From positions 1-64,000 of the forward strand of contig WRLY01000001.1 in NCBI GenBank assembly GCA_009776305.1: a stretch of DNA of 64,000 nucleotides, given 5' to 3'. This stretch comes from Oscillospiraceae bacterium. GTDB taxonomy: Bacteria; Bacillota; Clostridia; Oscillospirales; Ruminococcaceae. The position numbers and the translations under genes were made by a program. Below, in pieces: positions 49,959 through 64,000 of this stretch (the stretch's first letter is position 1; each line of letters begins with the position of its first letter). The notes beneath the pieces were generated by a model. That model was not told the DNA's origin and searched no databases. It saw nothing but the letters and a program-made list of their open reading frames with translations.

Positions 49959-50134
49959 TTAATTATCACATTCACTGTGTCTTGGAATCATTTCCTGATA
50001 ATAGTTTAAGAGTTCGCCGAAACGCTGAAAATGCACAACCTCCCGTGCGCGGAGAAACTTAATGATTTTGTTGACGTCAGGGTCGTCGGAAAGTCGAAGT
50101 ATGTTGTCGTAGGTGGCACGGGCTTTTTGTTCTG
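49959..50134 (-). pseudogene. cotJC: cotJC 3' segment (manganese-catalase-like spore coat protein)
   Basis: From the crossover near 50131-50134 the frame reads EQKARATYDNILRL, then DDPDVNKIIKFLRAREVVHF and QRFGELL, the C-terminal third of CotJC/Mn catalase, including the His ligand in EVVHF. It ends with a normal stop. The frame upstream of 50134 is element DNA (PPFGCSYPVAP), unrelated to CotJC. The matching middle segment is at 56126. Interrupted rather than decayed: no stop or frameshift within it. Confidence 0.9.
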
Positions 50135-50150
50135 GTGCTACAGGGTAAGA
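50118..50150. other. Attachment site of element A, left end
   Basis: Plus strand GGCTTTTTGT-TCTG-GTGCTACAGGG: cotJC sequence up to TCTG (50131-50134), element to the right. TCTG is shared with the other end at 56126-56129. GTGCTAC is one arm of the proposed attP inverted repeat. Confidence 0.8.
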
Positions 50151-50218
50151 ACAACCAAACGGGGGGGCGGCGGCTTTGCACAAGGCTTGAAAATTCAGTA
50201 ATAATAAGCTTTTATCTG

Positions 50219-50258
50219 AATACGGTATGTTTTACGGCATACCGTATTTTATTTTTTT
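50219..50258 (+). terminator. Terminator just inside element A left end
   Basis: Eleven-bp stem AATACGGTATG/CATACCGTATT, 8-nt loop, then TTATTTTTTTT. No plus-strand gene precedes it in the integrated form; in a circular form it would follow the recombinase gene across attP. Confidence 0.9.
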
Positions 50259-50324
50259 TAGCAAAGTGTTATATGCCTTCGAGATATTAAAGTATATAGA
50301 AAAATTCAAAGGGGGATTAGGAAT

Positions 50325-50963
50325 ATGGCAAAAAAAGTAACTACTCCATTATTGTATGGTGCGAAGCATTTAAACAACCCGTGCGCCTACAGACCGACAA
50401 ATCTAAAAGAGCATAATTCTTTTATCTGTGCACCACGCAGGGGTACGGTTTTGAAAAATCATTTAACCGGTGAGAAGAGCGTAATAGGAGAAGGCAAAGA
50501 AATCGTTTTGAGTGGCACGGTAGGCGAGATAAGCGTATTGTCTTTGCGGAAAGTTTTATCAGCCTACGCCATGACAGACGGAACTTCGTTATATAATTAC
50601 TTAACGCGCACCTTCAAGAACAAGCCGCTTATTTTCGATTGGTTGCCCGTAAAATTCGTTCCTCCCGTTGCGAGATACCACGTCTTGTTTATACCGGAAA
50701 GAGAGAAGTTCAATTTTATTGGCACAGACGGCAAGGTGTGTTTTGTAAATCAGCCGCATTGCTCTCATGGTGGCGGTGATTTTATTGTGTGTTCAGACCT
50801 AAACGGCAGACCAAATTTGGCTGATAGACGCGTAGTGAACGGGGCTATTTTCAGAAATATTTTTACGCTTCGAGGGAAGCTTTCGGTTTTAGCGGGGGAA
50901 AAGCAAGCAAAACAAAGTACGCCTAAAAGCTTTTTTGCTGTGCCTGTGGTTATTGAATATTAA
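50325..50963 (+). CDS. Unrecognised 212-aa protein
   Basis: Soluble, no signal or membrane helix, basic near the start; features include CAYRPTNLKEHNSFICAPRRG and a Cys/His pair in NQPHCSHGGGDF. I do not recognise a family. AAAGGGGG precedes ATG. It is followed 30 bp later by the SprT-like gene, so the two are probably co-expressed. Base composition is like the rest of element A. Confidence 0.7.
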   Translation: MAKKVTTPLLYGAKHLNNPCAYRPTNLKEHNSFICAPRRGTVLKNHLTGEKSVIGEGKEIVLSGTVGEISVLSLRKVLSAYAMTDGTSLYNYLTRTFKNKPLIFDWLPVKFVPPVARYHVLFIPEREKFNFIGTDGKVCFVNQPHCSHGGGDFIVCSDLNGRPNLADRRVVNGAIFRNIFTLRGKLSVLAGEKQAKQSTPKSFFAVPVVIEY

Positions 50964-50993
50964 TATTCAACATTGAAAGGACGGTATTTATTT

Positions 50994-51611
50994 ATGGGAA
51001 AATCAAAAGTTATGGGTCTGCAAGTGGTTTTAGGCAAATTAGAGCAGTTATTTAAAACATTCAATGCTCATATTTTTAATGGCGAACTCGAAACCCCTGT
51101 TATAACTATTGCACCCGACACAACTCGCGGTGCCTATGGTTGGTGTACGAGTTGGAAAGCTTGGAAAGACACGGACGGTAGCGGTTTCTTTGAGATTAAC
51201 GTGTGTGCCGAATATCTGACCAGACCCTTTGAGCAAGTTTGCGGTACGCTGTTGCATGAAATGGTTCACCTTAAAAACCTACAGGGCAATGTTCAAGATA
51301 CAAGCCGAAACGGCTATTTCCACAACAAAAAATTTAAACTAATGGCCGAAACACACGGGTTGACGGTTGAAAAAACTAAAAACGGTTGGAGCAAAACCAC
51401 ATTGACGCCCGAAACTGCAGAATGGTTAAAGTGCGAGTTTCCTAATGATACCGGCTTTACACTTTATAGGGAGAAGAAAATCAAAGCAACCGCTACCCAA
51501 AGAGTCAAGTCGTATAGGTATATCTGTCATAACTGTGATATAATTGTACGGGCGACAAAAGAGGTGTGTTTGATATGCGGGATATGTAACGCAATTCTCG
51601 AAAAAAGCTAA
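50994..51611 (+). CDS. SprT-like zinc metalloprotease domain protein
   Basis: About 205 residues. The zinc motif HEMVHLKN (HExxH) is near residue 86 with a third ligand His in GYFHNKKFK (about 107), and two CxxC pairs near the C-terminus (YICHNCD, VCLICGIC) form a zinc ribbon, the layout of SprT/Spartan-like proteins. These act on DNA-protein contacts in other systems; here target unknown. ATG 50994 (after GAAAGGACGG) is preferred to the TTG 21 nt upstream. Confidence 0.85.
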   Translation: MGKSKVMGLQVVLGKLEQLFKTFNAHIFNGELETPVITIAPDTTRGAYGWCTSWKAWKDTDGSGFFEINVCAEYLTRPFEQVCGTLLHEMVHLKNLQGNVQDTSRNGYFHNKKFKLMAETHGLTVEKTKNGWSKTTLTPETAEWLKCEFPNDTGFTLYREKKIKATATQRVKSYRYICHNCDIIVRATKEVCLICGICNAILEKS

Positions 51612-51746
51612 ATACAAACATAGGTGTGTCTTTCTATAAATATGATATGAGAGGTATAAAAAGACAGATTTTAGGGTTGGGGGTTTAGAGTGCGGACGAA
51701 GCGGCGGAGGGCTTGCGGCAAAAATAAGTTTAAGGGGTTTAATGTG

Positions 51747-51780
51747 AAGAGCGTCAGGGTCGAAAGACCCTGACGCTCTT
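51747..51780. terminator. Bidirectional terminator
   Basis: Perfect 15-bp stem with GAAA tetraloop between the SprT-like gene and the convergent XRE gene. Confidence 0.93.
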
Positions 51781-51787
51781 CTATGTT

Positions 51788-52021
51788 TTAATCAAACTTT
51801 AAGAATTTCCACGCAGGAGTGTTAAGTATAGCCGCAATTCTAAACAGAGTCGTTAAACTGATAGGTTTATCCATGTTGGGCGCTTCAATAGCTCCTATAT
51901 AGCTTGTAGACACTTCCAACAATTCAGCTAATTTCTCTTGCGTTAATCCATTTAATTTACGATAATAGGCTATTTTTAGCCCTAACTTCTTAAAATCTAA
52001 CGACAGATTATTGTTATCCAC
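51788..52021 (-). CDS. XRE-family transcriptional regulator
   Basis: A 77-residue single helix-turn-helix domain (LTQEKLAELLEVSTSYIGAIE, in part, about residues 25-44). It is divergent from the small lipoprotein operon and an inverted repeat at 52092-52110 lies over that operon's start, so it likely controls it and itself. Confidence 0.92.
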   Translation of the reverse strand: MDNNNLSLDFKKLGLKIAYYRKLNGLTQEKLAELLEVSTSYIGAIEAPNMDKPISLTTLFRIAAILNTPAWKFLKFD

Positions 52022-52053
52022 GGCATTTTCACCCCCTATTTAATTATAAAGGG

Positions 52054-52082
52054 TTGACATTAAAATCAGTATCGTATATAAT
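52054..52082 (+). promoter_or_regulatory. Promoter of the small lipoprotein operon
   Basis: TTGACA (52054-52059), 17 bp, TATAAT (52077-52082). A weaker divergent TATAAT for the XRE gene is at 52043-52048 on the minus strand. Confidence 0.92.
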
Positions 52083-52091
52083 AAGTATATA

Positions 52092-52110
52092 TATAACCTC
52101 ATAGGTTATA
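52092..52110. promoter_or_regulatory. Probable operator for the XRE regulator
   Basis: Perfect inverted repeat TATAACCT-CAT-AGGTTATA, 10 bp downstream of the -10 element. Confidence 0.8.
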
Positions 52111-52157
52111 ATAATATGCCCTGCGATTACAAGCAGGAAAATGAAGGAGGTTGTGAC

Positions 52158-52367
52158 ATGAAGAAACGAGTTGTATTTATCGTAACGGGGTTGATTTTTA
52201 TTATGACCCTGTTATCGGGCTGTACAAAGGAATGTGAGTTTTTCGGTTGCAAGGAAAATGCGGCACTATTCAAAGACTATTGCAAATCACACCAAAAGAC
52301 TATGGACACCGTGGACGGGATAAAAGACGGTGCCAATAGTATTATTGACGGAATTTTCGGGGGGTAA
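52158..52367 (+). CDS. Small lipoprotein with Cys/His knuckle
   Basis: About 69 residues. A lipoprotein signal (MKKRVVFIVTGLIF...LLSGC) is followed at once by CEFFGCKENAALFKDYCKSHQK, a CxxxxC...CxxH metal-site pattern. The start ATG 52158 lies after AAGGAGG; the longer frame covers that site. The same pattern recurs in the next gene's C-terminus (DLCVNCREVA...PWCLEHY), suggesting a shared binding module. Function unknown. Confidence 0.75.
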   Translation: MKKRVVFIVTGLIFIMTLLSGCTKECEFFGCKENAALFKDYCKSHQKTMDTVDGIKDGANSIIDGIFGG

Positions 52368-52372
52368 AGATT

Positions 52373-52810
52373 ATGAAAATTTGTTTTAATTGTGGGCATG
52401 ATTTGTCCGAACATGTAGAAGGGGCAACCGTTTGCCAAAAGTGTGGGGTAAACCTCAATCAAAATTCGCAGGAACAGGGAATTGTTCCACATACGTCAAC
52501 GCAACCATCGGGGCAGGCAGTTGCTTTATCCTCTAACAGAAAAAAGGCTATAATAGTCGTTTCGGTTATTTTTAGTTTAGTTGTAATTGTCATTTTAATT
52601 ATCGCTTTACTCGGCGGCGGCGACAGTAGCACAAGCAATGCTTCAATTCAGGTTCCCGACCTTTGTGTTAATTGCAGAGAAGTAGCGACAGAGTCGTTTG
52701 AAGGGAAGCCGTGGTGCCTTGAACATTACAATCAGCGTAAACGGATTGTTGATTCAATTGAAAAAGGTGATGGTTGGAATGCGGTTTTTGACTATTGGGG
52801 AGTTAATTAA
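52373..52810 (+). CDS. Zinc-ribbon membrane protein with second Cys/His knuckle
   Basis: The 145-residue product begins with a zinc ribbon (CFNCGHD...CQKCGVN, residues 3-25), has one membrane helix (about 62-84), and after a linker ends with LCVNCREVATESFEGKPWCLEHY (given in part), similar in layout to the small lipoprotein upstream, 5 bp away. With the lipoprotein it may form a pair at the outer face of the membrane. Function unknown. Confidence 0.78.
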   Translation: MKICFNCGHDLSEHVEGATVCQKCGVNLNQNSQEQGIVPHTSTQPSGQAVALSSNRKKAIIVVSVIFSLVVIVILIIALLGGGDSSTSNASIQVPDLCVNCREVATESFEGKPWCLEHYNQRKRIVDSIEKGDGWNAVFDYWGVN

Positions 52811-53109
52811 AAATTGATTATTAATAAAAAAGGAAGGTAACAAACAATGAAAAACGTATTATATTATTAATTCTTGCACTACACCTATTTTGATTTGCTT
52901 TGTTATAATAGTGCCAAAAGCACGTTCGCAAAATTACAACATACTGGTGAACAATTCAGAAATAAACCAAACCGCCCCTTCGAGATTCGAGGGGGCGGTT
53001 TTATGTGAAACCTGTGCCTTACCTAAATATTTTATGGTGGGGAGGTTTGGGAGTTGGGTTTTCGGCGAATTGGAGTTGGAGTTTATGGGAGTACGAACGG
53101 AAAAACGCT
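52811..53109 (+). other. Intergenic stretch with tiny broken ORF and terminator
   Basis: A good ribosome site (AGGAAGG) precedes ATG 52847, but the frame stops after 7 codons (MKNVLYY); the next frame continues with hydrophobic residues (CFVIIVPKARSQ), so this may be the remnant of a third small secreted or membrane protein after a frameshift. A terminator stem AAACCGCCCCTTCGA/TCGAGGGGGCGGTTT (one T-G pair) lies at 52969-53001. Nothing else is visible. Confidence 0.5.
52969..53001 (+). terminator. Terminator of the small lipoprotein operon
   Basis: Fifteen-bp stem with GAT loop followed by a short T stretch. Confidence 0.8.
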
Positions 53110-54108
53110 TTATTCGTAGTTGTTTGTGAGCGTTTCCTCAACCCTCTGCTTTGACTTGCGTACGCAAACGGGGTCAATATCTGTGCCTAAAAAGCGGCGC
53201 GTGCCGAGCTGCGCCGCCGCGACAGCGGAGCTACCGCCGCCGAGGAAACAGTCTAAAACGAGTTCGCCCGGGTCGGAAAATTTTTCGATTAGCGTTTTTT
53301 GAACCGCCACGTTTTGCCCCCATACATGATAGGTTTTATCGCCGCTTTTATCGCCGGGGGCGCGTATATAGTCGCTCTGCCAATCGCCACGATATTCGCC
53401 TTTTGTGAACCATAAGAAGTATTTCACAAAAGGCGAAACCCTTTTCCATTCAAGCATCGGCGCGCTTGCGGGCGTGTGGTAGGCTATGAGCCAATGCCAT
53501 TTGAGCCTGTCGTTTTTTTGTAGTGCCTGTATGACTTCGGGTAGGTGACTGCTCCCTGTCATGCAAAGCAGACTGCCGCCTTCACGCAAAACCCTGCCTG
53601 CAACCATGCCGAGGCTTTTATATAGAGACAGAGCGGATTTTTGATAAGGTGGGTCGGTTATTAGAAGTGTCACGCTTTCGCTCTCAACTTCCGGCAAGCC
53701 GTTATGTATATCGGCTTTAAAGATTTTTATATTTTCCGCAACACGTCCTATGGGCGTGTTTTTGCGTGCCTGTTTGGCTTCCTGTCTAAGTTTGCGTTGG
53801 GCGTAGACAGGGGAAGTCAAGTTTTCACGCATCATTTTATCTAAGACACCGGGAGTTTTAAGTGCCTGTAAGTTTTTTACGTTGTAGGCACTTAAATCTA
53901 TAACGCCGCCTTTTATTAAAGGGTGATTTAACCAGTTGCTTTCTGTTGTGTCCCCGTGGCAAAGTTTGCCGCTTTCTTCTAAAATTCGCCTCATAGCGGC
54001 TACGCTTGTATGACTACAGCCTACGGCGCGGGCGAGTTCTCTATTTGATAAATTCGGAGCGGCGAGAAGCCGCTCTTTTATTTTTTCTCTTTTTTCAGCA
54101 TTTGTCAT
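53110..54108 (-). CDS. DNA methyltransferase with N-terminal HTH (orphan)
   Basis: The 332-residue product has a helix-turn-helix region (LSNRELARAVGCSHTSVAAM, about residues 20-39) like ParB/KorB or Xre-associated sensors, and a methyltransferase with LLITDPPYQKS (motif IV DPPY, about 150) followed by VLDCFLGGGSSAVAAA (motif I FxGxG type, about 283), the order of beta-class N4-cytosine/N6-adenine enzymes. No restriction endonuclease is beside it, so it may protect the element or act as a regulator. Confidence 0.9.
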   Translation of the reverse strand: MTNAEKREKIKERLLAAPNLSNRELARAVGCSHTSVAAMRRILEESGKLCHGDTTESNWLNHPLIKGGVIDLSAYNVKNLQALKTPGVLDKMMRENLTSPVYAQRKLRQEAKQARKNTPIGRVAENIKIFKADIHNGLPEVESESVTLLITDPPYQKSALSLYKSLGMVAGRVLREGGSLLCMTGSSHLPEVIQALQKNDRLKWHWLIAYHTPASAPMLEWKRVSPFVKYFLWFTKGEYRGDWQSDYIRAPGDKSGDKTYHVWGQNVAVQKTLIEKFSDPGELVLDCFLGGGSSAVAAAQLGTRRFLGTDIDPVCVRKSKQRVEETLTNNYE

Positions 54109-54229
54109 TTCTGTTTAAGTCTTTCTTCATATCATTTTATTAACTTTCTCTATTATATCAAATAAAAATCTTAAAATCAAATATGTGCCTATGCAGAAAT
54201 CTACCAAAACAAAACGGGAAGGTAGAGAT

Positions 54230-54535
54230 ATGAGCGAGGCAAAAATTACCACAAAAGGCATAGGACAAGGTTTCAACGCCATAAGCATTGCTAATGAGAG
54301 CGTGCAAGGGGGCGGAGGCGTGGGCAAAGGGAAAATTAAGAGCGTGGAGTGCAGGAACATTTTTAAGGGCGAGGGGAATATCAAAGCTTCATTTAATGCT
54401 TTATGGGCTGATATAATAAACTTTAAGGTTTATAAAAATTTTAATGCTGAAAGTCTTGAAATTTGCGATAATACCGGGTATAATAAAGACGTGCAAAGCT
54501 GTCCAAACCCCGTGGAAGGGGTGAGACAGCCATGA
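54230..54535 (+). CDS. Small protein coupled to recombinase A
   Basis: About 101 residues from ATG 54230 behind GGAAGG. Glycine-rich middle (VQGGGGVGKGKIK) and three Cys (VECRN, EICDN, VQSCPN). No family recognised. Its stop overlaps the recombinase start (ATGA). Small genes next to large serine recombinases often code for directionality factors, but that is inference. Confidence 0.6.
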   Translation: MSEAKITTKGIGQGFNAISIANESVQGGGGVGKGKIKSVECRNIFKGEGNIKASFNALWADIINFKVYKNFNAESLEICDNTGYNKDVQSCPNPVEGVRQP

Positions 54536-56088
54536 AAAAAACAGCAATTTATTGCAGATTAAGCGAGGAGGATAGAAACAAAAAGAACCGCACCGACGAA
54601 AGCGAAAGCATACAAAATCAGAAATCCATGTTGTTACAGTACGCTATGGAAAAAGGTTTTGAGGTCTACGGCATTTACAGCGACGATGATTTTGCGGGGG
54701 CTGACCGAAACCGCCCGGAATGGAACAAGCTTTTATCCGATGCCGAGCAGAAAAAATTCGATGTAATTTTATGCAAAAGCCAGTCTCGCTTTACCCGTGA
54801 AATGGAAATGGTGGAAAAGTACATACATTACTTGCTCCCATTGTGGGGGATTCGCTTTATTGGGCTTATTGACTATGCCGATTCCGACGATAAGGGCAAT
54901 AAGAAATCACGGCAAATAAACGGTCTGGTAAATGAATGGTATATCGAGGATATGTCCGACAATATCAAGAAAACGCTGACTAACCGCCGTGAGCAGGGGT
55001 ATCACATAGGTTCATTCGCCCTTTACGGTTATTTAAAAGACCCCCAAAATAAAGGGCGGCTGATAGTTGACGAGGAGGCGGCGGCGGTGGTTAGAGAGGT
55101 TTTCGCCCTATTTGTCAGCGGCTACGGGCGTACCGCCATTGCTAAGGCTCTTAATGCTAAAGGCGTTCCAAATCCCACGGAATACAAGCGCATTAAAGGG
55201 ATAACCTACAAGCCGTCTAAGAGTAAAATAGGCACTCTTTGGCGCGATTATACTATTTCCGATATGCTGAAGAATGAAATGTATGTCGGTACAATGGTGC
55301 AGGGGCGGTACGGCTCGGTGTCTTATAAGTCCAAAATAAACAAGCCTAAGCCAAAAGGTAACTGGATTCGAGTTCAAAACACACACGAGCCTATAATCAG
55401 CACGGCAATGTGGGAGCAGTCGCAAGAGCTGATAAGACAGAGGGCGAAACCTTTCAGCACGGGCGAAATCGGTCTGTTTGCCAAAAAAGCAAAGTGTATG
55501 TATTGTAATTATACCTTACGTTCTTCAAAAAATCGTGACCGCTATTACTTGAAATGTGCCACAAAGCACACGGCGAAGGATGCTTGCGAAGGCTCTTTTA
55601 TCCCCGTTACACAGTTGGAGCAAGCTGTTTTATCGGAGCTTAAAAGCTTGTTTGAAAAATATTTTGACAAGGCTAAAGTCGAAGAGCGTTTAATGCCTAC
55701 GCAAGATTTTGCCGACAGAATAGCAAAATTGAAATCGTCAAAGGAAGCCTACGAAAAAGAAATTGCAGGGTTTTCAAAGTCGAGGCAAGAGCTTTACAAG
55801 GACAAGGTTAAGGGGCTTATTGACGAGAGCGAATTTATTGAGCTTTCCCGTGATTTCACCAAAGACAAGGAAAAACTTGAGGCACTTGTCAACGGAATAG
55901 AGCGTGACATTAACAACCTTGAGCTTAAAGCCGTGCGGGCAAAAGATAGGAAGCAAATAATAGCAGAATACAGCAGGGTAGAACGCCTTGACCGTGTAAT
56001 GGTGGAGCGGCTAATAGACTTCATCTCTGTCGGCAAGCGAGACCCGGAAACTAAGCAAGTACCTATAGACATATACTGGAATTTTTAA
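54532..56088 (+). CDS. Large serine recombinase A
   Basis: A 518-residue site-specific recombinase. The catalytic domain has TAIYCRLSEEDR with the nucleophile Ser near residue 10, the ILCKSQSRFTRE motif (about 79) and the E-helix; a recombinase domain starts near residue 160 (GYHIGSFALYGY); a zinc ribbon has CMYCNYTLRS and LKCATKHTAKDAC (about 323-352); a coiled coil (about 405-480) follows. It sits 37 bp from the right end of element A, as expected for the integrase, and should carry out both insertion into and excision from cotJC. Confidence 0.95.
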   Translation: MKKTAIYCRLSEEDRNKKNRTDESESIQNQKSMLLQYAMEKGFEVYGIYSDDDFAGADRNRPEWNKLLSDAEQKKFDVILCKSQSRFTREMEMVEKYIHYLLPLWGIRFIGLIDYADSDDKGNKKSRQINGLVNEWYIEDMSDNIKKTLTNRREQGYHIGSFALYGYLKDPQNKGRLIVDEEAAAVVREVFALFVSGYGRTAIAKALNAKGVPNPTEYKRIKGITYKPSKSKIGTLWRDYTISDMLKNEMYVGTMVQGRYGSVSYKSKINKPKPKGNWIRVQNTHEPIISTAMWEQSQELIRQRAKPFSTGEIGLFAKKAKCMYCNYTLRSSKNRDRYYLKCATKHTAKDACEGSFIPVTQLEQAVLSELKSLFEKYFDKAKVEERLMPTQDFADRIAKLKSSKEAYEKEIAGFSKSRQELYKDKVKGLIDESEFIELSRDFTKDKEKLEALVNGIERDINNLELKAVRAKDRKQIIAEYSRVERLDRVMVERLIDFISVGKRDPETKQVPIDIYWNF

Positions 56089-56109
56089 GCAGAAGTTAAA
56101 ATGTTGTTC

Positions 56110-56140
56110 TTAGGCGGTAGCCCCCTCTGCCGCCATATCC
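56110..56140. other. Attachment site of element A, right end
   Basis: Plus strand TAGGCGGTAGCCCCC-TCTG-CCGCCATATCC: element on the left, cotJC on the right from TCTG (56126-56129). Joined with the left end, the element circle would read GTAGCCCCCTCTGGTGCTAC, an inverted repeat with one mismatch around CTCT, the build of serine integrase attP sites. Confidence 0.8.
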
Positions 56141-56462
56141 TCCATTATATCCGCGATCGGATCGCCCTTGCTTTGAATCCCAGCCGCCGTCCACGGTACG
56201 CCGCTTGCCGAAGCGGGAAAAACCGCGTTTGAGTGGTCTACATAATAATCGCCGCGACCCCACTTATCAAAAGACTTTGCACCCTCACCCTTGGTAAGCT
56301 GAGTGACAATTGAGCCTACCATTTCAAGATGTCCGAGTTCTTCGGTTCCTATATCCGTCAGCAACCCCATCCCCCTCTTATCCGGCATTGTAAACCTCTG
56401 CGAGAGGTAGCGTAGCGAAGCTCCAAGTTCTCCGTCCGGACCGCCATATGCCATTTTGTGAT
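56126..56462 (-). pseudogene. cotJC: cotJC middle segment
   Basis: Reads YGGPDGELGASLRYLSQRF, then DIGTEELGHLEMV (Glu and His metal ligands) and SKGDPIADIMEDMAAE, ending where element A begins (the stop, after GATA, is element DNA). The N-terminal part of CotJC (about 30 residues before YGGPDGEL) is missing: upstream of about 56462 the sequence becomes that of element B, ending in its recombinase gene. The segment has no internal stop. The exact 5' boundary is uncertain by perhaps 15 bp. Confidence 0.88.
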
Positions 56463-56476
56463 AGTTAGACTTAAAA

Positions 56477-57910
56477 TTACAGGTAGTAAATTGATATTTC
56501 GTTCTTCCCTCTGTTAAAAATAATCTTTTCAACTATTTGCCGAAGCAGTAGGTTTTTTTCTGTTTCAGAGATTTTGGGGTTGGTTAGGATTTTGAGGCTT
56601 GCCGAAACGCTGTTTTTTCTCGCTTGCGCTCCAATATCCGCAGAGGTTGCGAAATTAGGTTTAGCTCTTTCTTCCATTTTTTTCATTTCGATTTCTATTT
56701 TTGTTTTTCGCTCTTTAAATTCCTCGATTCCATACACACCATTTTCATAAGCGTCCATTACTCGACTCAACTTTCCCCGAAGCCTTTCAGTTAGTTCTTT
56801 ACTGTCGTCTTTGTCGGAGGTTGATTTTTGAACAGGGCTTACCAAAAACGTGCCGATACCTACGTCCTTTCGGATTTGCTCAATAACCGTTTCGGTTATT
56901 AAATGGATTACTACGCTATGCGAAACAGGGCATTTACCGTGAGCGTAGGCGTGGCATTGTAAACTGACGCCTTTTACAGCTTGGACCAATGTCGCACCGC
57001 AATTACTACATTTAACTAAACCGCGAAGCATAAAATCCGACTGGAGAACACCTTGGTGTTCTCCTTTTTTGTGCGCCGCCTTTATTTTGGCGAGCCTTTT
57101 CTGTGCTTCGTTAAATATGTGTTCGTCGATAATCGGTTCGTGACTACCCTGCGCTATCATAATATCTTTGTCGTCGTAATTTCGCCGTGTCTTGCGCTCC
57201 GGATTCCAGCGTATTTTGCCGATATAGACGGGGTTACGCAAAATATATTCAACAGTTCGATTTTCCCAAACGCCGCCGCGAGATGTTAAAATGCCCTTTT
57301 CATTAAGCCTTACAGCAAGCTCCCTAACACCAACACCTTTTAAATATTCGTCAAAAAGAAAACGGATTATTCGGCTTTTTTCTTCATCAGTAACGTAATT
57401 TCCATTCTCAATTTTATAACCGAATGCGGGAATGGATACAACTCCCCCGCGTTCGGCTTTTTCTTTCATTCCTCGCTTAACCTCTCCGCTTAAATTTATG
57501 CTGTAATACTCATCCATCGCTTCGATAAGAGCTTCAATTAAGATTGACGTTTTATCATCTCCGAGAGATTCACTTATTGAAATGACCTCTATTCCGTCTT
57601 TTCGTAGCATTGATTTATAGACAATGCTATCCTCCCGATTTCTCGCAAATCGGGAAAATTTCCAAAGAAGAATTACATCAAAGGGTTTAGGGGTTGATTT
57701 TGCCGCGCCTATCATTTTGTTGAATTCGGGGCGCTTTACAGTGCTTCTGCCGCTGATTCCTGCGTCTATATATATGTGTTCATCAAGCAACTCTATGTTA
57801 TTTTGTTTTGCATATTTACGAATTTCTTTCAATTGACTGTCGGGGCTAAGCTCGGTCTGCTCCTCGGTAGATACCCGGATATAAGCGCTACCGGTTTTTT
57901 CTAAAATCAT
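56477..57910 (-). CDS. Large serine recombinase B
   Basis: A 477-residue site-specific recombinase with GSAYIRVSTEEQTELSPDSQ (nucleophile Ser near residue 14), LLWKFSRFARNRED (about 80), a recombinase domain from about 155 (GVVSIPAFGYKIENG), a zinc ribbon KCSNCGATLVQ...LQCHAYAHGKC (about 302-327) and a C-terminal coiled coil. It differs from recombinase A along its length, so the two elements are independent. Its stop lies about 15 bp from the cotJC middle segment. Confidence 0.95.
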   Translation of the reverse strand: MILEKTGSAYIRVSTEEQTELSPDSQLKEIRKYAKQNNIELLDEHIYIDAGISGRSTVKRPEFNKMIGAAKSTPKPFDVILLWKFSRFARNREDSIVYKSMLRKDGIEVISISESLGDDKTSILIEALIEAMDEYYSINLSGEVKRGMKEKAERGGVVSIPAFGYKIENGNYVTDEEKSRIIRFLFDEYLKGVGVRELAVRLNEKGILTSRGGVWENRTVEYILRNPVYIGKIRWNPERKTRRNYDDKDIMIAQGSHEPIIDEHIFNEAQKRLAKIKAAHKKGEHQGVLQSDFMLRGLVKCSNCGATLVQAVKGVSLQCHAYAHGKCPVSHSVVIHLITETVIEQIRKDVGIGTFLVSPVQKSTSDKDDSKELTERLRGKLSRVMDAYENGVYGIEEFKERKTKIEIEMKKMEERAKPNFATSADIGAQARKNSVSASLKILTNPKISETEKNLLLRQIVEKIIFNRGKNEISIYYL

Positions 57911-58066
57911 TATTTAACCTCTTATTTTTGCAATCAATATCATATAATTTTACCATATAACAAAATAAAAGTCAATGACGAATATTGGAGAATATTGAGG
58001 AGGGCTGAAACCATGAATAATAAAATAAAAAAAAGGGATATTGATTATTAACATAGCAGAGTCGTG

Positions 58067-58153
58067 GTTAAACGCCTTAAGGCTTTAACAAGCGCATAGA
58101 CAAGAGTAGCTCTCTTGAGGACGGTGATGTTAGCCCGCCGTCCTTTTCTATGC
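58067..58153 (+). ncRNA. Structured leader with three-way junction before parA
   Basis: A hairpin GTTAAA(c)GCC-TTAA-GGCTTTAAC (58067-58089) is followed by a closed three-way junction: P1 GCATAGA/TCTATGC (58094-58100, 58147-58153), P2 CAAGAG/CTCTTG (58101-58106, 58112-58117), P3 AGGACGG/CCGTCCT (58118-58124, 58138-58144), with only two unpaired junction bases. P3 is followed by TTTT. It lies 35 bp before parA and may be a regulatory leader, attenuator or small RNA. No known family recognised. Confidence 0.6.
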
Positions 58154-58188
58154 AATAAATTAATCAGGCTAACAGAAAGAGGCTAACA

Positions 58189-58995
58189 ATGAAAAGTACA
58201 GTAATTTACACCATAGCAAATCAAAAAGGCGGCGTTGGTAAATCATCAACAGTTTTGAATTTAGGCTATGCTCTAAGTCGTAACGGCGCGAAAGTCTTAC
58301 TTATCGACCTTGACCCGCAAGCTTCACTTTCAGTTTGTTTCGGGGTGGTAAACCATGAAAAAGAAAAAAATACGGCAGTCAGGCTTTTTGAAAATGTTTT
58401 AAGCGAAAAGTTAGAACAGGAAGATATTTTCAGTTGTATTCATTCCCATGCAACCAACGAAAATATAAACATTATACCCTGCAATATCGGACTTGCCCAA
58501 ATTGAAGACAGACTCAGAAACGAAGTCGGCTCTGAAATGACCTTGTCGGAAATTTTGCGACCTTTAATCGGTAAATACGATTACATCATATACGACACAT
58601 CTCCATCTTTGGGTTTGCTTTTAATAAACGCGCTATCCACGAGCGACGGCGTAATAATCACCGTCAGTCCTCAATTTTTATCGGCGTTAGGACTGGAGGC
58701 GCTTATAAAAACCATTAATAAAACCCGAAAGCGTGTAAACGCCAGACTCGAAATACTTGGGATTTTATTAACCATGTGCGACCCGCGCACAAATTTATAT
58801 AAAGATATACGAGAGGCGTTGGAGGTTTTTTACAGCGAACATCTTTCTATTTTTAAAACGTATATTCCCTACTCCACAAAAGTCGGCGAAGCGAATCTTA
58901 ATAAACAAAGCATAATTGAGTTTAGTCCGGACAACAAAGCCGGACAAGCATATATGGCGTTGGCGTTGGAATTGAAAAACAAACTGCACAGGTAG
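58189..58995 (+). CDS. parA: ParA-family partition ATPase
   Basis: A 268-residue deviant Walker ATPase with NQKGGVGKSSTVLNLGYAL (about residues 10-28), DLDPQASLS (about 41) and the YDTSPSLGLLL switch (about 125). Works with ParB downstream to segregate or stabilise the circular form of the element. Direct repeats AGGCTAACA flank its ribosome site. Confidence 0.95.
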   Translation: MKSTVIYTIANQKGGVGKSSTVLNLGYALSRNGAKVLLIDLDPQASLSVCFGVVNHEKEKNTAVRLFENVLSEKLEQEDIFSCIHSHATNENINIIPCNIGLAQIEDRLRNEVGSEMTLSEILRPLIGKYDYIIYDTSPSLGLLLINALSTSDGVIITVSPQFLSALGLEALIKTINKTRKRVNARLEILGILLTMCDPRTNLYKDIREALEVFYSEHLSIFKTYIPYSTKVGEANLNKQSIIEFSPDNKAGQAYMALALELKNKLHR

Positions 58996-59016
58996 AGGAA
59001 GGAACTATATTATATT

Positions 59017-60063
59017 ATGAATTATGAAGAACTTACCAAACTTTCCGCGCAGGAGAAAAAACTAGAAAAAGCACAAGAACAAGAAAAAAACGTGAAAAAT
59101 AAAGGCGCCGCACAAGCCAAAAGCGCATTAGCGAGCTATATCCAGACTGACGATGAACAACTTACACTACCAATAGAGCGTTTACAGCCCTATCGCGACC
59201 ACCCCTTTAAACTATACACCGGGGAAAGGTTTGACGCTCTTGTCGAAAGTATCAAGGCTTTGGGCGTCGTCATGCCTGTTATTGTAAGAGCGCTTGGAAA
59301 TTCCAAGTACGAAATTTTAAGCGGACACAACCGTGTTAACGCCGCTAAAACCGCCGGACTTGATGAAGTGCCGGCGGTTTTAAAAGAGGATTTAAACGAC
59401 GAGGACGCGGCGCTGATTGTCACCGAAACGAATTTAATTCAGCGTTCATTTTCGGATTTATCGCACAGCGAAAGGGCGGTTGCGCTTAAAACGCACATGA
59501 GCGCGATTAAAGCGCAGGGCAAAAGAAGCGATATAATTAACGAGGTAAACTCGCTCTTAAATGTCGATGAAAACAGGGGATATCCAACTTCAGGACTATT
59601 AGTCCCGAAGTTGGAATCAAGAGATAAAGCGGCTGAAAAATACGGTTTAGACGCGCGGAGCGTAAGCAGATATTTAAGGCTTGCAGAACTTGAAGAACAT
59701 ATTTTAAAGCGTGTTGATAACGGCGAAATCGGACTTTACCCTGCTGTTTCCCTCTCGTATCTCACCGCCGAAGAACAAAAAGAGCTTGATTCGTTTTTCG
59801 GCAATGCCGCGTATAAAAAAATCGACATGAAAAAAGCGGAATTATTACGCGAGCTTTCCGCCAATAAAAAACTGACTGCAGATAAAATGGTGGCAGTTTT
59901 GTCGGGCAAATACAACAAAAAACCTAAACCCAAGACTCCTCCGCCCCTAAAAATCAAGCATACGGTTTATTCAAAGTATTTTGATGACAGCGTTTCCGCA
60001 GAGGAGCGGGAGAATATTATTGATAAGGCGTTGGAGCTTTATTTTTCACAAACGGGAGAATAA
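59017..60063 (+). CDS. parB: ParB-family partition protein
   Basis: The 348-residue product has the ParB/Srx N-terminal domain (LPIERLQPYRDHPFKLY and SGHNRVNAA, about 50-110), a HTH domain near residue 200 (KYGLDARSVSRYLRLAEL), and a C-terminal region to 348. A 31-bp palindrome in the gene codes for GYPTSGLLVPKLES (about residues 188-201), which looks like an insertion in the linker before the HTH. It follows parA by 21 bp. Confidence 0.93.
   Translation: MNYEELTKLSAQEKKLEKAQEQEKNVKNKGAAQAKSALASYIQTDDEQLTLPIERLQPYRDHPFKLYTGERFDALVESIKALGVVMPVIVRALGNSKYEILSGHNRVNAAKTAGLDEVPAVLKEDLNDEDAALIVTETNLIQRSFSDLSHSERAVALKTHMSAIKAQGKRSDIINEVNSLLNVDENRGYPTSGLLVPKLESRDKAAEKYGLDARSVSRYLRLAELEEHILKRVDNGEIGLYPAVSLSYLTAEEQKELDSFFGNAAYKKIDMKKAELLRELSANKKLTADKMVAVLSGKYNKKPKPKTPPPLKIKHTVYSKYFDDSVSAEERENIIDKALELYFSQTGE
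59584..59614. repeat. 31-bp palindrome in parB, candidate centromere site
   Basis: CCAACTTC-A-GGACTA-T-TAGTCC-C-GAAGTTGG: 15-nt arms with one mismatch. Its reverse complement shares 21 consecutive bases with the palindrome at 61717-61743. Confidence 0.8.
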
Positions 60064-60066
60064 GCA

Positions 60067-61131
60067 ATGGGTAAATACACCGACGAGCAATGGAAAGTAA
60101 TCACAAACGCAAATTGCGTCAATACTGCTTTAGCGTTAGGATTTCAAATTGATGAAAACTGTAAGGATAAGAAAGCGTTTCACATTAAAGACAATGGCGG
60201 GTTTTATGTTTGGAAAAACGGTAGCGGATTTTTACAATTCAGCTCCGGAGATAAAGGCAGAGCGGTTGACCTTGTTATGAAAACGCTGGGAATCAAATAC
60301 GGCGAGGCGCTTGACTGGATTAACGGCAATGTTTTAAATGGCGAATTCAAGACGCAACAGCAAACTTATTTCACAGATTCGCATAAAACGCAGGAAAAAG
60401 CGGATTTCAAATTACCGGAAAAGACAAGACCCTCTAACGCTTACGCCTATCTGCTTCAGCGTCGCGGTTTGGATAAAGAAATAGTGTCCGCTCTTTTTAA
60501 CGAAGGCAGTATTTTTCAGGATTCAAAAAACCGAAATGTCTGTTTTGTTGGTTTTGATAAGCAAGGCGAAGCAAAATATTGCGCTATGCGCGGCACGGGT
60601 GACGCCCAATATCGTGGAGAGGCGAGCGGCTCCGATAAGAGATTCGGCTTTGCAATCAACGGTAATTCAAGTGTTTTGAAAATATTTGAAAGCCCAATAG
60701 AAGCTCTAAGTCACGCTACACTTGCGAAAATGTCAGGTAAAGATTGGAAAGCAGACACCCGCCTAAGCTTAGGCGGGTGCGTTACTTTGGCGCTTGAGCA
60801 ACATTTGGCAGACCGCCCCGGGTATAGTGAAATTTGGATTTGCCTCAACAACGATGAAGCAGGGATAAAAACCGCAAACCGAATCAAAGAGATGTTTGGC
60901 GATGAATACAATTTAAAAATAAAGCTTCCGCGCAATAAGGATTTTAACGATGACCTTATCGAAGCCAAAAGCTTGATGAACGAGCGCGGTTGTGCGTTTC
61001 AAGTCGTTTTAAACTCTTGGAAAACAGGTGAACCTATCGGGAGCAATAATCAACTGTCGGCGAAATGCGTAGAGTTGACAGCAGAACAAACTTTTTCACG
61101 AAGATTCAAAAACTACTCCTCCTGTCTCTAA
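60067..61131 (+). CDS. DUF3991/TOPRIM-domain protein
   Basis: The 354-residue product has the DUF3991-type N-terminus with GSGFLQFSSGDKGRAVDLVMK (given in part, about 55-75), and a TOPRIM-like domain with LKIFESPIEALSH (Glu, about 200) and EIWICLNNDEAGIKTANRI (DxD-like NND, about 255). Such primase-like proteins are common on mobilisable elements and plasmids beside relaxases. Starts 3 bp after parB, so it is in the same operon. Confidence 0.88.
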   Translation: MGKYTDEQWKVITNANCVNTALALGFQIDENCKDKKAFHIKDNGGFYVWKNGSGFLQFSSGDKGRAVDLVMKTLGIKYGEALDWINGNVLNGEFKTQQQTYFTDSHKTQEKADFKLPEKTRPSNAYAYLLQRRGLDKEIVSALFNEGSIFQDSKNRNVCFVGFDKQGEAKYCAMRGTGDAQYRGEASGSDKRFGFAINGNSSVLKIFESPIEALSHATLAKMSGKDWKADTRLSLGGCVTLALEQHLADRPGYSEIWICLNNDEAGIKTANRIKEMFGDEYNLKIKLPRNKDFNDDLIEAKSLMNERGCAFQVVLNSWKTGEPIGSNNQLSAKCVELTAEQTFSRRFKNYSSCL

Positions 61132-61480
61132 AAGCCGAGGAAAACTCTGCGGAGTTTTCTCCCGTCTTTTCTTTCCTTGGTGAAACTTTTTAACTCGTTC
61201 TTCTGCTCCGTCTGCCCGTCACGCCGAGAAAAACAAAAAATTTCGCCATTGCTAATTATAAATATAAGAACTGTTTTTAAGAAGTGTTCTTAAAAGACGC
61301 ATATTTTTCCGAAATTTTTGTTTTTTCCCGTCTGACTTCCTATTCAACTGTAATAGATTGCAACAGGACTATATTTTATTTTATAAATAAAAGGATGTAA
61401 TTCATTTTTAAAACTGCAGAGGACATCTCCCTCGATTTTTCTTTCGTTATTCCAGAAGGGTGTTTTAGGGGATTCCGAAT

Positions 61481-61625
61481 CCGCGAGCGTAGCGAGCGGG
61501 GTGCTGAGGGCAAGAATAGAGGGGTGACCCCCTCTACAAAACAGCTTGAAGCCAAAGGCTTCAACGGGGGTTCTCGGAAGCACCGCTTCCGCAAACGGGG
61601 TTCTCTCCGCGCTCAGCGCGTTTTT
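61481..61625. repeat. Array of five hairpins
   Basis: In order: CGCGAGCGTAGCGAGCG palindrome-like (61482-61498); AGAGGGG/CCCCTCT (61518-61535); TTGAAGCC/GGCTTCAA (61546-61564); CGGAAGC/GCTTCCG (61575-61591); CGCGCT/AGCGCG with TTTTT after it (61608-61625). CGGGGTTCTC-like direct repeats lie between them. Confidence 0.75.
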
Positions 61626-61716
61626 ACGGCGGAAACGCGATAAAAAGAGGCACAGAAATTTGAATTTATAACGGCAAAAAATCGCTCTCAAACTCCGATA
61701 AATACAAGGATAGTTC

Positions 61717-61743
61717 AACTTCGGGACTAATAGTCCATAAGTT
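61717..61743. repeat. 27-bp palindrome before mobilisation genes, candidate centromere site
   Basis: AACTT-CG-GGACTA-A-TAGTCC-AT-AAGTT. Shares CAACTTCGGGACTAATAGTCC with the reverse complement of the palindrome in parB; 52 bp before the relaxosome gene. Confidence 0.8.
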
Positions 61744-61794
61744 AAATTAAAGGTAAAACCAGCGGTAATTTAAATTACAAGGTAGGTATAAATT

Positions 61795-62253
61795 ATGGAT
61801 AAGAAAACTACTCACAAATTTTCTGTAACATTATCAGACAGAACGTTTGAAAACCTTAAAAAACTTGCGGCGAGCAAACATATTACTCAGTCCGAGCTTA
61901 TACGCAGGTTGGTAAATAAAGGACTATCGCTTGAGTCTTATGCAAATGAACAGGATTTAATACAAGGGTATATCCGCGAAGCAGTAGATGCCTCTATAGG
62001 CAATTCTACGGACAGATTAATCAGATTGCAATTAAAGGCAACGCAATCAGCGGCGATATGTATGTATGCCTGTATCAGCGTTTTATCGGACTCTTGCGCT
62101 GATGAAGCGGATTTTGAAAACCTTCTTGCTAATGCTATAAGGCAGGCGCACATTTACATGAAACAAAAAGAACTTCCATTTGAAGACTATGTTTCCCAAG
62201 CGAAAAAATTTCACGGTTTTGCAAGAGAGATAAAAAATATAAATGATATGTAG
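61795..62253 (+). CDS. Relaxosome protein with ribbon-helix-helix domain (MobC-like)
   Basis: The 152-residue product has an N-terminal ribbon-helix-helix motif (KFSVTLSDRTFENLKKLAA then ITQSELIRRLVNKGL, about 8-43) and a helical C-terminal part. It lies 8 bp before the relaxase gene, the place of MobC-type accessory proteins that open oriT. Confidence 0.82.
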   Translation: MDKKTTHKFSVTLSDRTFENLKKLAASKHITQSELIRRLVNKGLSLESYANEQDLIQGYIREAVDASIGNSTDRLIRLQLKATQSAAICMYACISVLSDSCADEADFENLLANAIRQAHIYMKQKELPFEDYVSQAKKFHGFAREIKNINDM

Positions 62254-62261
62254 GTTAATTT

Positions 62262-63482
62262 ATGGCACTTTTAATTTACAAGCAGTGGCACAGACAGCCG
62301 AATATTAAAAATACACCAGCAAGTAACGCGGCGCATGTTAAATATATAGGCGAACGCTCCCATGTAATGAAATCCGAAAATTGTGAAAACGGGCTTTTCG
62401 GCGTGTTTGATGAACAAAGATTCGGTTATAAAATTGACATGGACAGGGCGATGAAATATGTCCGAAAGCTTTCCGAAAACGGACATACGATTTTCAGAAG
62501 CATGGTATCGTTTACACCGGAAATCGCGCAAACATTACATCTTGAGGATAAACGTAGCTTTGAGTATTATATTAAATCCCACATATACAGCATGTCAAAA
62601 CATAACGGAATAGAAACAAAAAATTTTGAATATTTGGCGGCTGTGCATGACAAAGAGGGGCAACCGCACTTTCATGTTGTATTTTGGGATAAAGCACAGG
62701 AAGTCGGCAAGAATTTCGTAAACCCTCTTATCGGCGACAAAATCAGAAACGAATTGGAGGAACGCGCCGCCAAAGAAATTATATCGGAGTTCCCCGAAGG
62801 CTATTTTCAGAATTGGGAAACAAACGATAATGTCCGACGCACTTTAATCAAGAATTCATTTAAAAACGCATTTAGCGAGGAATATAAAATCCAAAAGTCT
62901 TCAGCGGAAAACATATCTGACATTTTAGGAAAAAATTTAACCGGAGAAACCAATTTCCCCGCTTTAATAGCGGAACAATTTAATTTGTTACTTAAAAACC
63001 GACCGCGAACAGGCAGAAATTATTATTCATTTATGTCTCGAGAATACAAATTGAAATTAAATAAATTTACGAATATATTAATTGAAAGCAATCCGTCCTT
63101 AAAAGCGGAATATGACCGAATGATGTCAAGCCATGAAACAATCGCGTTTGCACTTAACAGTGGTAGTACTAATTACGGCAAGTTGAACATAGCCACATAT
63201 TTAGGAAAAATGCAGGACAAGTTTTACGCAAAAGCGGGGAATAAAATATTGCGCGAATTAAAAAATACTTCACAGGTCAAGGATAAGAATTGTAAAAATC
63301 ACGCTAAGTTTGATGAAAACAAAATGGCAAATCAAATTTTAAGATTATTAAAATCTCTTACCCCGCGTGAAGATACGCCCCATCTGCCCGAAACCGACGC
63401 CTATCTGAAAAACGCTGATTTATCAAAAACGGCGCTGAAAGACGCCATACAAGAAAAACAGGATAAGGGACATGAAATGTAA
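62262..63482 (+). CDS. Relaxase, MobL/MobP type
   Basis: The 406-residue product has MALLIYKQWHRQPN at the start, a candidate catalytic Tyr early in the domain, and the metal triad region HDKEGQPHFHVVFWDKAQEVG (given in part, about residues 127-146; HxH), as in MobL/MobP3 relaxases of Firmicutes elements. It should nick oriT, perhaps in the hairpin-rich region upstream. It ends in a basic tail. Confidence 0.88.
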   Translation: MALLIYKQWHRQPNIKNTPASNAAHVKYIGERSHVMKSENCENGLFGVFDEQRFGYKIDMDRAMKYVRKLSENGHTIFRSMVSFTPEIAQTLHLEDKRSFEYYIKSHIYSMSKHNGIETKNFEYLAAVHDKEGQPHFHVVFWDKAQEVGKNFVNPLIGDKIRNELEERAAKEIISEFPEGYFQNWETNDNVRRTLIKNSFKNAFSEEYKIQKSSAENISDILGKNLTGETNFPALIAEQFNLLLKNRPRTGRNYYSFMSREYKLKLNKFTNILIESNPSLKAEYDRMMSSHETIAFALNSGSTNYGKLNIATYLGKMQDKFYAKAGNKILRELKNTSQVKDKNCKNHAKFDENKMANQILRLLKSLTPREDTPHLPETDAYLKNADLSKTALKDAIQEKQDKGHEM

Positions 63483-63505
63483 AAAAGGACGGAGGAATTA
63501 AAAAT

Positions 63506-64000
63506 TTGAGTTTCAGCGATAACTTAAATGCATACATATTAAATCCCCAAAACAGGCATAGCCCGATAGACGTTTGCGAAACGCCTAACGCCCTGCTCAC
63601 GATTGGAGCAAAGCCGCTCCCCGTGGTTATGAATCCAAACGATATTGATAAGTGCCTTGCGGGGCAGACGGCGAACAAAAATAAAAACTCCCATGACTTG
63701 ACAACTAAGGAGTTGGGAACGTTGCCTGAATTGCTTGAAAATCCTGCAATGGTTTTGAAAGACCCGAAAACCAATAATATAACGGTAGTTACCGATATGT
63801 TTGATAAAATCGGTAATCCATTTGTTATCGGTGTAGAATTAAATCGAGCGCAAGACGAATATTTCGTAAACCGCGTTGCGACAATGCACGGTAGAGAGCG
63901 GGCATTTGAAAGCTTTATAGCTAAGAACGGAAAAAAAGTGCAGGGCTTTGTTCCAAGAATGATAACAGAGGGAAACTTACTCGCAATAAACATAGAAAAA
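63506..64000 (+). CDS. MuF-C-like domain protein (partial, runs off window)
   Basis: Starts at TTG 63506, 10 nt after GGAGG; 165 codons are visible and open at the right edge. The segment from about residue 60 (LTTKELGTLPELLENPAMVLK, in part; ITVVTDMFDKIGNPFVIGVEL; YFVNRVATMHGRER) matches the pattern of the C-terminal domain of phage MuF proteins, a BECR-fold group with predicted RNase toxins. In front of it are about 50 residues without a recognised domain. Confidence 0.75.
   Translation, partial: MSFSDNLNAYILNPQNRHSPIDVCETPNALLTIGAKPLPVVMNPNDIDKCLAGQTANKNKNSHDLTTKELGTLPELLENPAMVLKDPKTNNITVVTDMFDKIGNPFVIGVELNRAQDEYFVNRVATMHGRERAFESFIAKNGKKVQGFVPRMITEGNLLAINIEK

Follow-up and report, generated by a model that had tools for sequence, protein, structure and literature searches.

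A cotJC coat gene divided by two serine-recombinase elements and its probable restoration in the mother cell

RESULTS

Three pieces of cotJC and two elements on one contig

The DNA analysed here, the window, is a stretch of 64,000 nt (C1:1-64000; contig WRLY01000001.1) from the Oscillospiraceae bacterium assembly GCA_009776305.1, a metagenome-assembled genome (MAG) of an uncultured gut bacterium (1.54 Mb in 7 contigs, 71% complete), and its subject is the spore-coat gene cotJC together with two elements, A and B, that lie inside it (G, C and L numbers are our handles for genomes, contigs and loci). An earlier reading, made from the window's sequence alone, held that cotJC is cut into at least three pieces by two elements, each with a serine recombinase of its own; three Pfam-matched pieces bear this out, and they lie with both elements on the same 743-kb contig (C1) in the order 5′ piece, element B, middle piece, element A, 3′ piece (Table 1). 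The 5′ piece, which that reading expected past position 64,000, is present beyond element B with CotJB and CotJA, and it scores weakly with Pfam alone (E 0.018) and at 40.9 bits with a CotJC model. The pieces sit behind cotJA-cotJB, and the elements interrupt the coding region of a gene for sporulation. The 3′ and middle pieces are open and in frame and free of decay as had been claimed, although the middle piece ends nearer 56442 than the proposed 56462. A PF05067 search of the whole MAG, within its 71% completeness, returned these three pieces and no complete copy of cotJC, so that no second copy speaks against the sequence-only reading.

Joining the three pieces in silico at the shared cores gives a CotJC of 192 residues without a stop, in which QYGGPDGEL and AAEQKARATY are restored across the joints; the product is a full-length family match and carries residues aligned to five presumed metal ligands of manganese catalase. 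As two elements separate three pieces, two excisions would be needed to rebuild the protein, as had been foreseen.

The recombinases of A and B are both full-length, the stop codon of each faces a junction, and the two proteins are 25% identical over 340 aligned positions. Element B is an integrative conjugative element (ICE), with integrase, relaxase, coupling protein and type IV secretion system (T4SS) genes within defined ends; its genes beyond those in Table 1 include a T4SS coupling protein, TrbL, a TraG-type ATPase, a T2SSE ATPase, an M23 peptidase and a ParE toxin. Element A encodes, by Pfam, an SprT-like protein, a helix-turn-helix protein, an N4/N6 DNA methylase, proteins of unknown function and the recombinase, and the start of its small open reading frame (ORF) is uncertain, being either 54320 or 54230. 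Between cotJB and the start of cotJC lies a near-identical tandem pair of ∼60 bases (C1:91820-91950; L013:11820-11950).

Table 1. Coordinates of the cotJC pieces, the two elements and their genes (window positions, or C1 positions where the feature lies beyond the window)
Feature	Position	Strand	Remarks
cotJC 3′ piece	49959..50132	-	Codon 136 to stop; Pfam Mn_catalase positions 148-195; meets the middle piece at CAGA
cotJC middle piece	56126..56442	-	Codons 32-136, bounded by both cores; Pfam Mn_catalase 28-151
cotJC 5′ piece	C1:91709-91819	-	Outside the window; PF05067 positions 1-37; strand as the other pieces
CotJB	C1:91988-92206		5′ cotJC piece directly downstream; CotJA also upstream of cotJC
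Element A	50132..56127		5,995 bp between crossovers; site 3, codon 135/136; core CAGA
Large serine recombinase of A	54532..56088	+	Pfam Resolvase, Recombinase, Zn_ribbon_recom; site-3 clade in tree
Small ORF of A	54320..54535	+	Overlaps recombinase start; site-3 small-ORF family; candidate directionality factor
Sigma-E-like site of A, GCATA-N17-CATA	54258..54287	+	Before small ORF; weak
Element B	56442..64000 in window, on to C1:91729		35,287 bp; site 1, codon 31/32; core GGCGGTC
Large serine recombinase of B	56477..57910	-	Pfam Resolvase, Recombinase; site-1 clade in tree
ParA-type ATPase of B	58189..58995	+	Pfam AAA_31
ParB of B	59017..60063	+	Pfam ParB_N
MobL relaxase of B	62262..63482	+	Pfam MobL

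Split cotJC genes in the order and beyond

We searched 394 genomes of the order with PF05067, of which 327 match, and re-searched the 117 with weak or multiple matches, counting the pieces by hand. The resulting count of splits is a lower bound, since genomes with any full-length family member were not re-searched, nor were several with weak best scores (G068, G123, G129, G175, G215, G247 and G248); G225 and G270 were scored as partial splits, on account of a piece of 43 positions and of two contig ends. A split cotJC with all its pieces was found in 82 of the 117 re-searched genomes, some pieces in 29 and none in 6, and the present MAG comes in addition. Complete splits are at a single site in most cases (site 1, n=18; site 2, n=30; site 3, n=22) and at several sites in the others (1+2, n=5; 2+3, n=6; 1+2+3, n=1), to which this MAG adds the combination 1+3. 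By codon, six classes of site can be told apart: site 1 at 31/32, 2a at 62/63, 2b at 65/66, 3 at 135/136, 4 at 173-174, and one at 51/52 in G705 alone. For site 4, tail pieces were located downstream in G189 (at 13 kb) and G035 (at 7.6 kb), those of G136 and G232 were not found, and in G035, G136 and G232 recombinases of one clade lie 15-119 bases past the truncated end. Within the genus, 24 of 31 genomes match, with 10 full-length CotJC, 7 complete splits (this MAG included) and 7 with some pieces; splits are found in other parts of the phylum as well, G571 and G638 being examples in which a recombinase adjoins a piece.

Stacked elements are frequent, as at least two are present in 14 of the 82 complete splits (site 4 in G189 and G232 included), and G231 carries at least four (1, 2a, 2b and 3), with a micro-piece of ∼13 bases, GGTACAGAAGAAC, on the correct strand between 2a and 2b. 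The sequence-only reading had suggested that two elements in one coat gene might form a two-lock developmental switch. We find no support for the two-lock arrangement as a selected device: pairs of sites occur together within about twofold of the number expected from independent hits (by hand count, S1+S2 6 versus 3.1, S2+S3 7 versus 3.7, S1+S3 1 versus 2.1), and elements enter the gene at six places. The double splits are better explained by elements that stacked independently of one another in a gene that tolerates them.

Minimal elements of 3.1-4.6 kb (G242, G199, G355, G322, G232 and G379) keep the recombinase and few other long ORFs, and no phage or conjugation genes were recognised in them, as judged by reading the ORFs and not by a family search. 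In the very small site-2 elements of G242, G322 and G379 (L080, L077 and L079) the longest other ORF resembles, by eye, a metabolic or transport gene. The site-2 recombinase frame of G136 continues without a stop into a CotJC piece (728 codons; L061:3714-5897), and G693 has an additional CotJC 3′ piece (C22:483-674; L314) with a tail unlike that of the genus, perhaps a contamination of the MAG.

A different arrangement is seen where a full cotJC is accompanied, at a distance of 9-50 kb, by a second copy with its start at site 1 (G494, G672 and G563), or, at 4.5 kb, by a second 3′ piece with its start at site 3 (G698). The recombinase model matched only in the G563 stretches and had no match in the fully fetched stretches of G494, G672 and G698. 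Possibly these are elements that supply an additional 3′ part and thereby make the gene whole again, which we regard as a lead.

Junction cores and the choice of insertion sites

All 47 junctions compared (13 at site 1, 21 at site 2a and 13 at site 3) have a central dinucleotide common to both sides and in the same frame, which reads by eye as GG at site 1, GG at site 2a and GA at site 3; two further junctions without the motif proved to be site 2b. For the 38 split genomes from which every piece was retrieved, the joined gene can be read without interruption at least as far as QRFG. Joints in this set were placed at conserved motifs, so the claim of frame restoration rests on the 47-junction comparison instead, whereas the absence of stops and frameshifts within the pieces of the 38 genes is independent of joint placement (G050 is incomplete). 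Decay was considered for G705 and G272, whose listings contained stops, and was rejected when both turned out to be further splits.

Aligned with manganese catalase 1JKU, residues E35, E65, H68, E136 and H169 of the joined CotJC fall on E35, E66, H69, E148 and H181, which we take to be its metal ligands. Sites 1, 2a, 2b, 3 and 4 are each at most 5 codons from a ligand-aligned residue, and the 51/52 site is not. Among 12 intact genes, windows of 25 bases placed at these five sites are conserved to a degree reached by 3 of 20,000 random sets, or by 10 of 20,000 with all 50 genes; the site 2b window taken alone is at the 76th percentile.

Constraint on split genes

Closely related pairs of joined genes have very low ratios of nonsynonymous to synonymous divergence: dN 0.027, dS 1.19 and dN/dS 0.023 for G108-G377; dN 0.033, dS 1.36 and dN/dS 0.024 for G708-G705 (135 codons); and dN 0.013, dS 0.81 and dN/dS 0.016 for G136-G693. 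The intact pair L015-L017 has dN 0.016 and dS 0.57, and in the comparison of dN with dS distant pairs reach up to 0.1-0.3, split and intact alike. Moreover, the median pN/pS is 0.307 among split-split pairs (160 pairs), 0.323 among mixed pairs (126) and 0.327 among intact pairs (21). G136 and G693 have the site-1 insertion in common, aligned from cotJB through the recombinase, and their recombinases are 91% identical with dS 0.41. This shared insertion, together with the low dN/dS, suggests that cotJC has been constrained while cut, unless the element passed between the two genomes later.

Recombinase clades, relatives and free forms

In a FastTree tree of 55 recombinase rows (one place entered twice, branch support not printed), the proteins divide by insertion site and not by host, with one clade each for sites 1, 3 and 4, a main clade for 2a, within which two rows without a site label fall, and a small clade for 2b. 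Vertical inheritance was rejected as the rule, because site-3 recombinases cross families; the insertion common to G136 and G693 is one shared event.

Relatives of the site-1 recombinase number 563 in GTDB genomes; among the best 80, 73 abut a cotJC piece, and we read 20 of those pieces as being cut a second time, at site 2 (15), site 3 (1) or site 4 (4). Isolates with a site-1 split include Ruminococcus flavefaciens SAb67, Marasmitruncus massiliensis P3646 and Agathobaculum sp. P7918. Among 80 viral contigs that carry a recombinase of the site-1 type, 21 contain a cotJC piece. Of the 68 with at least 70 bases past the recombinase, 23 have a whole attP-like repeat centred on GGnGG (shuffles 0.1, maximum 1), and none of these 23 has a cotJC piece, which shows that they are unintegrated forms; they say nothing on developmental timing. 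In the viral contigs L204, L205 and L207 a recombinase of the site-3 type adjoins a CotJC piece whose start is near site 2b, so that viral contigs, too, show double splits.

Small ORFs before the recombinases

Directly before most site-2 and site-3 recombinases there is a conserved small ORF, a candidate directionality factor, for which neither Pfam nor NCBIfam has a fitting family. The site-2 model, derived from 4 sequences, has 17 matches, and the site-3 model has 24, of which 3 repeat one place and 8 are viral contigs outside the model building. We looked before these ORFs for [GT]nATA-N16/17-CATA, which is sigma-E-like by the B. subtilis consensus; the exact pattern was fixed after an earlier sigma-E result on the small ORFs had been seen. 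At -47 to -70 it occurs before 10 of 17 site-3 and 5 of 16 site-2 small ORFs (15/33 in total), compared with 6 of 265 other genes and with shuffles that gave 0.32 and 0.23 (maximum 3 and 2 of 1000). Fisher's test returned P 5.6e-12, a value that is too small, given the order in which the pattern was fixed and the close relationship among a number of the 33 sequences. At site 1, 15 of 69 divergent strands carry the pattern (3.5 expected, maximum 9), at scattered positions.

DISCUSSION

Taken together, we consider it likely that these are tolerated elements, each excised in the mother cell during sporulation, after which cotJC is rejoined. Several families of mobile elements, unrelated to one another, would use the gene as a tolerated (‘safe-harbour’) target, and each family would bring a large serine recombinase directed at a single conserved part of cotJC. 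The gene would remain cut in growing cells and in the forespore, and the mother cell, which builds the coat before it dies, would express each recombinase together with a small partner; each element would exit at its own core and cotJC would be rejoined in frame, while the spore would retain the elements. In the present host both excisions would be required, that of A (6.0 kb, site 3) and that of B (35.3 kb, site 1). What we infer is that excision takes place in the mother cell, that the small ORFs act as partners in it and that A and B are active in this host. For regulated excision the support is indirect, and it consists of dN/dS near 0.02 between close split relatives, the conserved small ORF and the sigma-E-like sites that 15 of the 33 ORFs have in front of them.

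Several observations weigh against such excision. No joined cotJC has been observed in any cell, and B. subtilis lacking CotJC is said to have no apparent defect (PMC12122855). Neither sigma-E nor sigma-K sites are enriched directly before the recombinases (43 of 55 rows, 12 being missed by the start motif), sigma-K sites are not enriched before the small ORFs, and at site 1 the sigma-E-like pattern on the recombinase strand gives no signal (5 of 69 versus 3.4 expected). In element A the sigma-E-like site fits solely with the small-ORF start at 54320 and was scored as negative in the main count. In element B no such small ORF was found, and none of 9 sigma-E-pattern sites precedes an ORF with a ribosome site. 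A search for SpoIVA found none in this MAG (71% complete), and SpoIVA is present in 27 of 31 genomes of the genus and in 19 of the 20 better ones; we attribute its absence provisionally to incompleteness. Rearranged genes are a further difficulty. In G108 the pieces are on one contig but 675 kb apart and in the wrong order (C1:198620 and 873266), and in G188 they are on opposite strands, so that simple excision cannot rejoin cotJC in either genome. Conserved chromosomal genes follow the 5′ piece in G108 and in G377 (pieces at C7:56721 and C1:3050), with the recombinase full length; recombination between the G108 or G377 pieces would cut the chromosome in two. Finally, where two families differ so far that their CotJC proteins are 63-71% identical, their site-3 recombinases still share 82-86% identity. 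Elements thus move between hosts, and many insertions may be recent, so that the selection seen may predate them.

The horizontal movement of site-3 recombinases would also be expected if excision were ordinary phage or ICE activation, under stress or spontaneously and with no tie to sporulation, the few cells with a joined cotJC being enough to preserve its sequence. This is an unlikely alternative. Element B looks like a complete ICE, viral contigs hold a whole attP for site-1-type elements, and site 1 is without a sigma-E signal on the recombinase strand, all as such activation would have it; the sigma-E-like sites before site-2 and site-3 small ORFs argue the other way, as do the minimal elements, which keep a recombinase although no phage or conjugation genes were recognised on reading their ORFs.

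It is improbable that the insertions are neutral or mildly harmful, in a gene that is conserved yet dispensable, and that the copies are young with decay to come. Contrary to this, the 38 joined genes have no stop or frameshift within any of their pieces, and the apparently broken genes of G705 and G272 are further splits; the dN/dS of 0.016 across the insertion shared by G136 and G693 and the finding of complete splits in 82 of 394 genomes, which seems too frequent for a short-lived state, point the same way. What this account does explain is the lateral spread of site-3 recombinases, the rearranged pieces in G108 and G188, and the lack of an apparent defect that is reported for B. subtilis without CotJC (PMC12122855). 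That the pieces act as separate polypeptides and are never rejoined is very improbable, for the ligand-aligned residues (by the ligand list assumed above) are distributed over all pieces and one piece in G231 has only ∼13 bases, even though the recombinase frame of G136 runs on into a CotJC piece (728 codons) and in G108 and G377 both pieces are constrained with chromosomal genes following the 5′ piece.

Mother-cell excision of tolerated elements is hence the reading we prefer, and we would extend it only tentatively, leaning slightly to the side of doubt. In the extended form cotJC may be a multi-site landing pad for at least six classes of recombinase that mostly read the DNA around metal-ligand codons; stacked elements (at least four, with a ∼13-base micro-piece) would each have their own mother-cell directionality factor of sigma-E type, and the enzyme would be rebuilt by orderly deletions in every mother cell.

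Developmental rearrangements in spore formers have been reported gene by gene with one element each, in the reports considered here. Here a single short coat gene has six fixed cut places for conjugative, phage-like and minimal elements, across a large gut order, often stacked and under selection. These dozens of natural replicates bear on the question whether an element costs its host nothing if it resides in a gene that only a dying cell uses and departs in that cell, and they offer matched sets of serine recombinase, attB, attP and candidate directionality factor. For annotation, a split cotJC is not necessarily a pseudogene. We found no report of a split cotJC in the open-licence PMC literature.

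Intervening elements (skin, SP-beta, vfbin, gin and yin) are known in sigK, spsM, spoVFB, gerE and yabG (PMC5595907, PMC10747680, PMC6957869), and the comparisons that follow are with these and related reports in the excerpts available. Phage phi027 of C. difficile adjoins cotG, a CotJC-like gene of the same family, but cotG is said to lie downstream of attR, and the excerpts report no interruption (PMC11222575, PMC12122855). Skin in sigK of B. subtilis and C. difficile is likewise an element inside a mother-cell sporulation gene, with a serine recombinase beside one junction and a frame-restoring core (PMC10747680, PMC6957869); the gene is another one, a single element per gene is reported there, and sporulation-specific excision was demonstrated, whereas here the joining is in silico. 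SP-beta in spsM of B. subtilis is, like the cotJC elements, a whole mobile element in a spore-envelope gene (PMC4191935), although it is a single prophage and those described here are an ICE and a small element known from sequence. Gin, located in the sporulation gene gerE of B. cereus, resembles them in that it is not a phage and encodes serine recombinases (PMC5595907), but it is one element with three recombinases, whereas cotJC of this host holds two elements with one end recombinase each. Yin in yabG of Clostridium shares the combination of a recombinase with a small candidate directionality factor, and differs in being one element, with excision seen by polymerase chain reaction (PMC10747680). 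By anatomy, the cotJC elements belong with those of sigK, spsM, spoVFB, gerE and yabG, while the target, the stacking and the kinds of element differ.

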